Of a DNA stretch of 64,000 nucleotides, positions 6,290 through 59,761 are shown one piece after another. The stretch's first letter is position 1. Each line of letters begins with the position of its first letter. The DNA comes from Bacteroidales bacterium (GTDB taxonomy: Bacteria > Bacteroidota > Bacteroidia > Bacteroidales > P3), in the NCBI GenBank assembly GCA_017633985.1, contig JAGBOF010000031.1, positions 1 through 64,000 of the forward strand, in the 5' to 3' direction. The translations under genes were made by a program, and so were the position numbers. Under the pieces are notes generated by a model. It was not told where the DNA came from. It did not search any database and saw only the letters and a list, made by a program, of their open reading frames with translations.

Positions 6290-6325
6290 ACGGCGTTTAA
6301 ATAAAATAAAACGCCGTTTTATTTT
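6290..6325 (+). terminator. Probable terminator after PBP1A
   Basis: ACGGCGTTTA pairs with TAAAACGCCGT around an A/T loop and is followed by TTTTATTTTA. Its right arm is also the first unit of the 21-bp array that follows. Confidence 0.55.
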
Positions 6326-56484: not shown

Positions 56485-57885
56485 TTAAAGATTCTTTCTG
56501 ATTATGGAGGTTATGTCTTCAATAATCACATTAGCCAAATGCTCGGCAGTGGTCAATGAATCACTCTCGGCATATATGCGTATAATCGGTTCGGTATTGC
56601 TTTTACGCAAATGAACCCACTCATTTTCGAAATTAATCTTCACCCCGTCAACGGTATTTACGTCATAATTTTTATATTTCTCCGCCATGGAGGAAAGAAT
56701 CATGTCCACGTTGATTTCAGGCGTAAGTTCCATCTTCTTTTTTGCGATAACATAGTTAGGATACGTATCACGCAGATCCTGACAAGACATCTTTTTCTTT
56801 GCAAGCAACGTTAAAAACAAAGCAATGCCCACCAAAGCGTCCCGTCCGTAGTGAATAGCAGGATAAATCACCCCGCCGTTACCTTCACCGCCTATAACGG
56901 CGGAAATTTCCTTCATCTTCTTAACCACATTCACTTCACCCACAGCCGCAGCCTCGTACTGCATGCCGTATTTCTTCTCCGTAATATCGCGCAAAGCCCT
57001 TGAAGAAGAAAGATTGCTCACCGTATTGCCCGGAGTGTTGGAAAGAACGTAATCGGCAACTGCTACAAGCGTATATTCCTCCACAAAAGGTTTACCCGTA
57101 TTGGAAACAATTGCCAATCTATCTACATCAGGATCGACAATAAACCCGCAATGACAGTGTTCCTTCTCAACAAGGTTGCAAATATCGGTAATATTTTCAG
57201 GAAGCGGCTCCGGATTGTGTGCAAACAGTCCCGTAGGTTCGTCATTCAACGCAAAAACATGCTCAACACCCAAAGCCTTTAACAGTTTCTTCAAAACAAA
57301 TCCGCCTGTAGAGTTTACAGAGTCAAAAGCAATGCGGAAATCAGCCTCTTTTATCGCTTGGGTATCCACCAAGTCCAGTGCTAATACTTTTTCTATATGT
57401 TTGTCTACCGCATCATCAACAGTTGTGTAAGTGCCAAGCTTTGTCGCTTCGGCGAAAGTGAAATTCCCTTCGGCTGCAAGTTGTAATACCTTTTCGCCGT
57501 CTTCTTTTGATATAAATTCTCCGTCACTGGCCAAAAACTTCAGTGCATTCCATTGAACGGGATTGTGCGAAGCGGTAAGGATTATACCTCCGTCGGCATG
57601 GTTATCCACTACTGCTATTTCGGTTGTAGGAGTTGTCGAAAGGCCTGTGTCAATTACATCAACGCCCATGCCCATCAGCGTTCCCGATACCAAATTGCTT
57701 ACCATCTGACCCGATATTCTGGCATCTCTTCCTATTAATATTGTAATTTTATCTTTACCTGCTTTTTCTTTTATAACAGTTGCGAAAGCGGCAACGAATC
57801 CCACCAAATCCACAGGGGTTAAGTTATCGCCCGCTTTGCCTCCTATTGTTCCTCTGAAGCCTGAAATTGATTTAACTAATGACAT
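56485..57885 (-). CDS. glmM: Phosphoglucosamine mutase/phosphohexomutase
   Basis: About 466 residues from the ATG at 57885 (a TTG at 57897 is an alternative). An alpha-D-phosphohexomutase: ISGFRGTIGG at the N-terminus, the phosphoserine loop TASHNPVQWNALK near 105, Mg-binding DPDVDRLAIV near 250, sugar loop GEGNGGVIYP near 330 and phosphate loop RKSNTEPIIRIYAES near 435. It makes glucosamine-1-phosphate for peptidoglycan and lipopolysaccharide; the GlmM rather than phosphomannomutase role is inferred from the family. Confidence 0.88.
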   Translation of the reverse strand: MSLVKSISGFRGTIGGKAGDNLTPVDLVGFVAAFATVIKEKAGKDKITILIGRDARISGQMVSNLVSGTLMGMGVDVIDTGLSTTPTTEIAVVDNHADGGIILTASHNPVQWNALKFLASDGEFISKEDGEKVLQLAAEGNFTFAEATKLGTYTTVDDAVDKHIEKVLALDLVDTQAIKEADFRIAFDSVNSTGGFVLKKLLKALGVEHVFALNDEPTGLFAHNPEPLPENITDICNLVEKEHCHCGFIVDPDVDRLAIVSNTGKPFVEEYTLVAVADYVLSNTPGNTVSNLSSSRALRDITEKKYGMQYEAAAVGEVNVVKKMKEISAVIGGEGNGGVIYPAIHYGRDALVGIALFLTLLAKKKMSCQDLRDTYPNYVIAKKKMELTPEINVDMILSSMAEKYKNYDVNTVDGVKINFENEWVHLRKSNTEPIIRIYAESDSLTTAEHLANVIIEDITSIIRKNL

Positions 57886-57915
57886 TTTTATATTCAATTT
57901 ATTAAATTAACTTTG

Positions 57916-57923
57916 CAAAGTTA
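57916..57923 (-). promoter_or_regulatory. -7 box of glmM in a palindrome
   Basis: TAACTTTG on the minus strand, 31 bp before the ATG. It forms half of the perfect palindrome TAACTTTGCAAAGTTA (57908-57923), so a -7 box also points the other way. Confidence 0.6.
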
Positions 57924-58037
57924 TGAAAAATCCGCCGAATACAAAAGTTAAAGGCGGAAAATTTACATAATAATTTTGCAAATACGGTGTGTAAGAATGC
58001 TTTTTTGCGGAAAACTGCCGCCTTCAACCGCATTGCT

Positions 58038-58149
58038 GCCGCCCCGTGGCGTTTTAATCTGAAAAAAATAGTTTTTTTGAGTCAAAAAAACAGTTTTTTT
58101 ACCCCGAAAAAACAGTTTTTTTCAAAATAATCAGCCACGGGGCGGCGGA
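58038..58149. repeat. 112-bp palindrome-ended repeat, copy 4
   Basis: Left arm GCCGCCCCGTGGC and right arm GCCACGGGGCGGCGG are almost perfectly inverted; hairpin triplets TAG, CAG and CAG lie at 58069, 58091 and 58113 (22-bp steps); linkers GAGTC and ACCCCG. It lies in the 680-bp gap between glmM and the MFS gene, next to a long 21-bp array. Confidence 0.9.
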
Positions 58150-58209
58150 CATACGCCTTAAGGCGCAGATAAATCATCATTGGGCAGCAATCTTTATGTA
58201 ATAAAACGA

Positions 58210-58482
58210 ACCTTTTCAAGGTGTTGAAAAACTATTATAAGGTATTTTAATAATATTATAAGGTATTGAAAGAATATTATGAAGTATTAAACGAATATCA
58301 CAGCGTATTATAAAAATAATATGATGTATTGTAAAAATATTATACTGTATTGTCAGGGTATTATAGTGTGTCATAAAAATATTATATGGTATTGAAAGAA
58401 TATTATGACAGGTAATAAAAATATTATAGAATGTTGCGGGGATATTATAAGGTATGGAAAAAATATTTTAGGGTGTTTGTAA
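58210..58482. repeat. Long 21-bp array (AATATTATAAGG word), 13 units
   Basis: Twelve units start at 58231 and repeat exactly every 21 bp to 58482. The consensus AATATTATAAGGTATTGAAA is followed by one variable base. A weaker unit at 58210 (ACCTTTTCAAGGTGTTGAAA) and perhaps one at 58189 are in register. No indels interrupt it, but most units carry several substitutions. There is no spacer between units, so it is not a CRISPR. I find no ORF in it; the rest of the gap to 58579 is AT-rich and featureless. Confidence 0.92.
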
Positions 58483-58579
58483 AATAAATCTTATTAAAAA
58501 TAAGTTATTGGGGAGATTCGGTTTTTGCATTTGGTGTAAGGACGGATTTTTATAATAAATTGAAAAGACAAAAGGCGGC

Positions 58580-59761
58580 ATGACGGCTATGGAAAAGCTT
58601 TGGAATAAAGAATATTGGAAAGTGATGACGGCGAATTTCTCTTTGTTTTTCGCCTTTTATCTGCTTACTCCCTTGTTGCCGCTGTATTTGAGCGAGAATT
58701 TCCATGCTACCAAAGACGTAATAGGTGTTGTTTTGTCAGGATATACGCTTACCGCCCTTATATCCCGTCCTGTAAGCGGTTATTTGGTTGATTCATATCC
58801 GAGAAAGAAGGTTTTATTGTGGTGTTTCTTCTTTTTCTTTATATTTTTCGGCGGATATTTGGCTGCAGGTTCGCTTGTATTGTTCGCAATCGTAAGAACG
58901 CTTCACGGATTACCCTTCGGAGCTTTGGCAGTTGCCAATTCGACTGCGGCAATAGACGTTTTGCCCTCCTCACGCCGCAATGAAGGAATAGGTTATTACG
59001 GATTGAGCAACAATTTGGCTATGGCAATAGCACCGACAGCGGGTTTGTTTATCTACCGCGCTACCGACAGTTTTGATATACTGTTTATATTGTCGTTTGT
59101 CGTTGCGGGATTGGGCTTTTTTGTGGATTCGACACTAAAATTACCTAAAAAGGAATTGATAAAAAACAAAAGCAAACTGTCTTTTGACCGATTCTTTTTA
59201 ACAAGAGGCTGGTTGCTTGCCGTGAATATGGTATTCTTCGGATTTTGTTACGGAGTTTTGGGCAGTTATTTGGCTCTTTATGCCAAGGAAAGGATGAATA
59301 TCAATTCGGGTACGGGAGTTTATTTTACTTTGTTGTCAATAGGTCTGATTCTTTCGAGACTTCAAGGCAATAAAGGGTTGAAAGAGGGTAAACTGACACT
59401 TAATGCCGCCGAAGGCGTGATAATTTCTTCCGTCGGTTATACGCTTTTTGTCGCTATGCCGAATGTTTACGGATTTTATCTGTCGGCATTGTTTATCGGA
59501 TTGGGTAACGGGCACATGTATCCTGCATTTCAGAATATGTTTATAAACATTGCCCGCCATAATGAAAGGGGTACGGCGAATTCTACGATACTTGTCGCTT
59601 GGGATATAGGCATCGGTATAGGTGTAGTGGTAGGAGGGTTCGTTTCGGAATTGTTTGATTACACTGCGGCGTTTTGGGTTGTCGCTTTGGCGCAGATTTC
59701 GGGTGCTGTTTTGTTTATTGCCGCAGGCAGAAAGTTCTTTAACCGCAGAAAATTGTATTAA
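58580..59761 (+). CDS. Major facilitator superfamily transporter
   Basis: A 393-residue inner-membrane protein with 12 predicted membrane segments. GYTLTALISRPVSGYLVDSY and the following PRKKVL near residue 60 are the MFS loop 2-3 motif. The substrate is not evident; drug or sugar efflux are the usual guesses. The true start could be the ATG at 58580 or the next one at 58589. No convincing promoter is visible downstream of the 21-bp array. Confidence 0.85.
   Translation: MTAMEKLWNKEYWKVMTANFSLFFAFYLLTPLLPLYLSENFHATKDVIGVVLSGYTLTALISRPVSGYLVDSYPRKKVLLWCFFFFFIFFGGYLAAGSLVLFAIVRTLHGLPFGALAVANSTAAIDVLPSSRRNEGIGYYGLSNNLAMAIAPTAGLFIYRATDSFDILFILSFVVAGLGFFVDSTLKLPKKELIKNKSKLSFDRFFLTRGWLLAVNMVFFGFCYGVLGSYLALYAKERMNINSGTGVYFTLLSIGLILSRLQGNKGLKEGKLTLNAAEGVIISSVGYTLFVAMPNVYGFYLSALFIGLGNGHMYPAFQNMFINIARHNERGTANSTILVAWDIGIGIGVVVGGFVSELFDYTAAFWVVALAQISGAVLFIAAGRKFFNRRKLY

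Follow-up and report, generated by a model that had tools for sequence, protein, structure and literature searches.

Plasmid iterons are direct repeats of about 20-22 bp that serve as binding sites and are stacked in phase with the helix. In the Bacteroidales, the BrickBuilt repeats of Porphyromonas gingivalis are made of 23-nt units that lie within a miniature transposable element with a leader, a tail and terminal inverted repeats, and they form one family of about 19 copies (PMC4596501). On a broader scale, a survey of prokaryotic satellites describes these as tandem repeats of 10-200 nt in at least four copies (PMC6749651). Here we describe a tandem array of 21-bp units from a Bacteroidales bacterium, located in a window of 64,000 nucleotides (the whole stretch of DNA that was analysed), together with the wider class of repeats to which it belongs.

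The 21-bp array and its neighbours

The array sits between two divergent gene starts, that of a minus-strand mutase and that of a plus-strand MFS transporter, and the features of the locus are as follows.

56485..57897, minus strand: phosphoglucomutase/phosphomannomutase gene, the divergent partner (gene calling, Pfam)
57916..57923, minus strand: TAACTTTG, -7 box of TAnnTTTG type near the mutase start (sequence reading)
58037..58147, no strand assigned: copy of the 112-bp element, with inverted ends CCGCCCCGTGGC at 58039-58050 and 58134-58145 and three 22-bp A7-N3-T7 units
58210..58230, plus strand: weaker thirteenth unit (consensus match)
58231..58482, plus strand: core array, 12 x 21 bp, consensus AATATTATAAGGTATTGTAAA (TRF, lag identity, substitution counts)
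58580..59761, plus strand: MFS transporter gene (PF07690, E 2e-49), starting 97 bp past the array

The earlier note, made from this DNA alone, had placed the array in a non-coding gap at 58150-58579. The gap is non-coding, but its true extent is 57898-58579 and it includes the 112-bp element, a copy of which was correctly recognized beside the array. The note also remarked that the MFS gene lacks an obvious promoter; no exact TTG-N20-TAnnTTTG promoter occurs in the gap. Near the mutase start, TAACTTTG is a -7 box of TAnnTTTG type, a promoter type of Bacteroidota, and two relatives of the same genus, G001 and G005, have TAATTTTG at the matching place.

The core of the array comprises twelve 21-bp units in perfect register with no indels, and the same array was recovered by TRF. 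The thirteenth unit is in register and agrees with the consensus at 14/21 positions (7/21 mismatches), while the 21-bp block after 58482, at the 3' edge, has 13/21 mismatches to the consensus and does not match. The thirteen indel-free units reported previously are thus present, twelve of them clear and that at 58210 weaker. Identity within the array is 0.62 at lag 21, 0.64 at lag 42 and 0.60 at lag 63, compared with 0.34±0.03 at lag 21 (highest 0.42) in 1000 dinucleotide shuffles. With head-to-tail units of at least 10 bp repeated beyond chance, the array is a tandem repeat of the minisatellite type.

Across the twelve core units there are 57 substitutions relative to the consensus, or 2-8 per unit. 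Heavy substitution had been noted before, yet the statement that many units differ at a third of positions was too strong, as this holds for 3 of the 12 core units and for four when the 58210 unit is included. Identity between units is flat with distance, at 0.63-0.69 for all spacings, and since adjacent units are no more similar than units far apart, the array is not freshly grown. The substitutions are unevenly distributed over the positions of the unit (variance 4.9 versus 2.0 for random scatter, p ~1e-4): positions 10-11, 17-18 and 21 are variable, and two blocks, TATTAT (positions 3-8) and GTRTT (positions 12-16), are nearly fixed.

On either strand the neighbouring 112-bp element is predicted to form one long hairpin (z -8 to -10), and the genome has about 40 further copies of it. 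Eighteen of the 30 copies examined lie in divergent gaps, which make up about 20% of all gaps. A RAYT transposase (PF01797), as a possible mover of the element, is absent from the genome. The element is probably not part of the 21-bp array and merely its neighbour.

Searches by pattern and by DNA place the array at a single locus: the genome has no other copy, and 13 further genomes from the genus and order yielded only short matches at chance level. G001 and G005, which represent two species, keep the divergent mutase/MFS pair, with a gap of about 130-160 bp versus 682 bp in the target genome, and this gap contains neither the 21-bp array nor the 112-bp element. Because both relatives keep the gene pair without it, the array is lineage-specific, and it is either dispensable or new.

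A genus-wide 21-bp period with turnover of unit sequences

The target array is a long non-coding 21-bp minisatellite and an extreme case of a genus-wide class of short intergenic arrays with a 21-bp step, a class that keeps its period while its unit sequences turn over. In sampled stretches of the target genome amounting to 464 kb, 85 of 122 non-coding TRF arrays have a period of 21 or 22. These fall into several sequence families; ATCGCTGATTAATAAATTTTT and TTAAAACGCCGTTTTAATTTT are two of them, and the 22-bp A7-N3-T7 units found in the 112-bp element are another. Non-coding identity at lag 21 is raised in all ten members of the genus tested (z 2.9-11.1); in the target genome the array itself was masked out, so that the signal there is independent of it. 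The unit sequences of the lag-21 arrays vary from one species of the genus to the next. Beyond the genus, two of three further genera in the family carry a 21- or 22-bp signal, and five genomes from elsewhere in the order, outside the family, have no lag-21 excess (z 0.9-2.6). No excess at lag 10/11 was detected in the target genome, G001 or G005, and the basic unit is therefore 21 bp rather than a generic 10.5-bp composition wave. The target array has the properties of this class, being non-coding, of period exactly 21 and without net indel, and is among the longest 21-bp arrays so far seen in the genus.

Several further arrays were encountered in the course of this survey. Short 21-bp arrays, mostly of about three units, lie near gene 3' ends at 6323, 17378, 25176, 43092 and 36939 in the window, with many more in the sampled stretches. 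A second long degenerate array of at least 16 TTTAATAATAAAACACACT-like units is located at about 39.6-40.0 kb of contig C18 of the target genome, in a gap between tandem genes that has no 112-bp element. In genome G007, three long intergenic arrays (L084:3885-4095, L085:16912-17121 and L082:15532-15720) keep strictly to 21-bp steps while shuffling words of about 10 bp, namely AATTTTCTA, AAAACAAAG, CTCTTTGTTTTA and the complements of these. The target genome also has a separate repeat class of heptamer-like (TGTAGTA)n arrays with a 7-, 14- or 21-bp period (C9:150624, C9:176543, C18:36930 and C21:3989).

The earlier note had proposed that across related genomes unit number may change while inter-unit length should not. 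We ran this check on the orthologous intergenic gaps of the sister species G001 and G005, which are about 95% identical, and the outcome was as predicted. In most of the 158 gaps the lengths agree to within 2 bp. Thirteen gaps show a length difference of 5-100 bp, and in seven of them it is an exact multiple of 21 (-21, -21, +21, +42, +42, +42 and +63), against an expectation of fewer than one; TRF scored no array in three of these seven, probably on account of the shortness of their arrays. Within TRF arrays we counted 193 substitutions and four indels (-45, -1, +1 and +21), the only 1-bp indels being one mutually cancelling pair. This gives 0.021 indels per substitution, compared with 0.061 in array-free gaps, although the counts are small. 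Arrays and their flanks diverge equally (0.092 versus 0.093), and an apparent faster evolution of arrays in 80 kb (0.147 versus 0.059) disappeared in this larger set. A few arrays were largely rewritten between the two species without change in length.

One such case is the G001 array at C151 49237-49392, which differs by 33% from its ortholog on C17 of G005 with zero length change, between flanking genes that are about 95% identical; its sequence has been replaced at constant length.

The constraint on spacing suggested in the earlier note is therefore supported for the class of 21-bp arrays, with the reservation that 21-bp steps would also arise if a neutral array slipped by whole units. That the target array is functional does not follow.

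The class has a preferred genomic position. Period-21 arrays occur in 48% of convergent versus 20% of divergent gaps (p = 0.013), and in tandem gaps they are closer to the upstream stop in 26 of 34 cases (p = 0.003). They also fold somewhat better than comparable 3'-end sequence (z -2.9 versus -1.6, p = 0.03), and a role at transcript ends is plausible for many of them. Only 8 of 61 sampled arrays are in divergent gaps. The target is an exception of this kind, lying neither near gene 3' ends nor in a convergent gap, and since most of the class is near gene 3' rather than 5' ends, the target may not share the function of its 3'-end kin. Two other arrays of individual sequence are also found in divergent gaps, each with a copy of the 112-bp element on one side and a plus-strand gene on the other (C9, about 138.7 kb; C6, about 5.2 kb). 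The best alignment of these units to those of the target is in the same rotation, with a weak likeness of 0.46-0.52 versus a mean of 0.32.

Candidate explanations for the conserved step

Our tentative preference, held at somewhat less than even odds, is that the target array provides a row of protein sites, each two helical turns from the next, and is kept in spacing more than in sequence. As 21 bp corresponds to two helical turns, each unit would display the same face of the DNA, and TATTAT and GTRTT, about ten bases apart, would act as weak AT-rich sites. These sites would be filled side by side and cooperatively by a DNA-binding protein, probably one associated with the nucleoid or a regulator, in which case the spacing of the units would outweigh the exact sequence of any one of them; at this locus the row would exert its effect from a position upstream of the MFS promoter. 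Such a cooperative row would account for the conserved spacing, the kept TATTAT and GTRTT blocks and the free sequence elsewhere. The perfect register and the uneven substitutions argue for it, as do the prevalence of period 21/22 in several sequence families (85/122), the genus-wide lag-21 excess, the lack of a lag-10/11 excess in the target genome, G001 and G005, the 21-, 42- and 63-bp length steps with few other indels between sister species, and the two other arrays at 5' ends. Counting against it are the absence of the array from the gap in two relatives, the mostly 3'-end location of the class, the ability of slippage alone to yield 21-bp steps and the weakness of the likeness to the two other 5' arrays. 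It is possible, though we think it unlikely, that the genus employs 21-bp spacing as a conserved signal in its own right, with intergenic DNA made up of two-helical-turn units of species-specific words and constant spacing, and that a clade-specific DNA-binding protein or its polymer would read the phase together with AT-rich words instead of a single fixed motif.

Almost as likely as a row of protein sites is a neutral minisatellite, in which slippage or unequal exchange multiplied a stretch of 21 bp that has since decayed by point mutation, the register being kept since small indels are rare relative to substitutions in bacteria. In its favour, the target is locus-specific and absent in relatives, and arrays and flanks diverge equally between the sister species. 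With a background ratio of 0.061, about 3.5 indels would be expected alongside the 57 substitutions; the chance of seeing none is about 0.03, which is weak counter-evidence, as the locus was picked for its register. Neutral decay is harder to reconcile with the crowding of substitutions at few unit positions and with an identity between units that does not drop with distance, and it leaves unexplained why one period is found with different sequences in so many arrays of the genus. The positional preference and folding of the class would suit an element of transcript 3' ends, in RNA or DNA, for example a bidirectional terminator. We regard this as quite improbable for the target, which lies between two gene starts, has no dyad symmetry, unlike several family arrays tested, and folds mildly on one strand only (z -2.2, versus 0.1 on the other), short of a structured non-coding RNA; no Rfam family was matched in the window.

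The array could also be cargo or a satellite of the neighbouring 112-bp element. Both are missing from the relatives' gap, and an individual 21-bp array lies beside a copy of the element in three divergent gaps. Such an array is nevertheless found at only 1 of 13 further copies, and the inverted ends bracket the element alone. A general link between the two was also rejected, the best lag-21 score being 0.491 in gaps with and without the element (p = 0.94), and we consider this origin highly improbable. Very little credence can be given to curved DNA, in which the DNA ahead of the MFS promoter would be bent by helically phased A/T runs: the target is AT-rich and 21 bp is near two helical turns, yet a wedge model predicts 25 degrees per 84 bp versus 35 in composition-matched shuffles (p = 0.87), and the bend is also below that of column-permuted arrays. 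Least credible is a decayed or hidden seven-codon coding repeat. One reverse frame is open throughout the array and would encode YNIFSIP-like heptapeptides, but substitutions in this frame are highest at second codon positions (18, 23 and 16 at the first, second and third), there is no start codon near its head and no Pfam match, and the other five frames have 6-12 stops over the 294-bp translated stretch.

Comparison with known systems

The target array resembles plasmid iterons in being made of direct repeats of similar unit length. It differs in being chromosomal and in lying between a mutase and an MFS transporter gene, without the adjoining replication or partition gene that would be expected of an iteron origin or centromere. 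A genus habit of species-specific intergenic arrays with a 21-bp step is apparently undescribed, and in the open-licence full texts searched we came across no description of a non-coding 21-bp period shared by a whole genus. Tandem repeats usually have a fixed sequence and a loose period; this genus has the reverse, a fixed 21-bp period and free sequence, in what by extrapolation would be hundreds of gene gaps. If protein binding is the cause, this would be a chromosome-organising or transcript-end system that is invisible to motif searches; if the arrays are neutral, it would point to a mutational process that favours steps of 21 bp, which is also unexplained. The target, being long, isolated and adjoined by two identifiable genes, is a convenient test piece.

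Like the phased A-tracts and 10-11-bp intergenic periodicity treated in two studies (PMC516772, PMC3940949), the target array is intergenic, AT-rich and related to the helical repeat; its signal is instead at 21, 42 and 63 bp and is without predicted curvature. Heptamer STRRs such as TAACTGA are also intergenic short direct repeats and have been reported in some Bacteroidetes (PMC4679880), but their 7-bp unit is nearly invariant, whereas the target has no heptamer period (lag-7 = 0.26, lag-14 = 0.28). In unit length and copy number the target fits the prokaryotic satellites; the part of that survey available to us describes few satellites in most species, many of them tied to coding repeats, and says nothing of a 21-bp period in non-coding DNA throughout a genus (PMC6749651). 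The nearest relative in kind is BrickBuilt of P. gingivalis, likewise an intergenic tandem array of the Bacteroidales with a unit near 20 bp, whose unit number varies by whole units between strains (PMC4596501). BrickBuilt is a single transposon-like family, whereas the target array is single-copy and has no terminal inverted repeats of its own, the only inverted ends nearby being those that enclose the 112-bp element.
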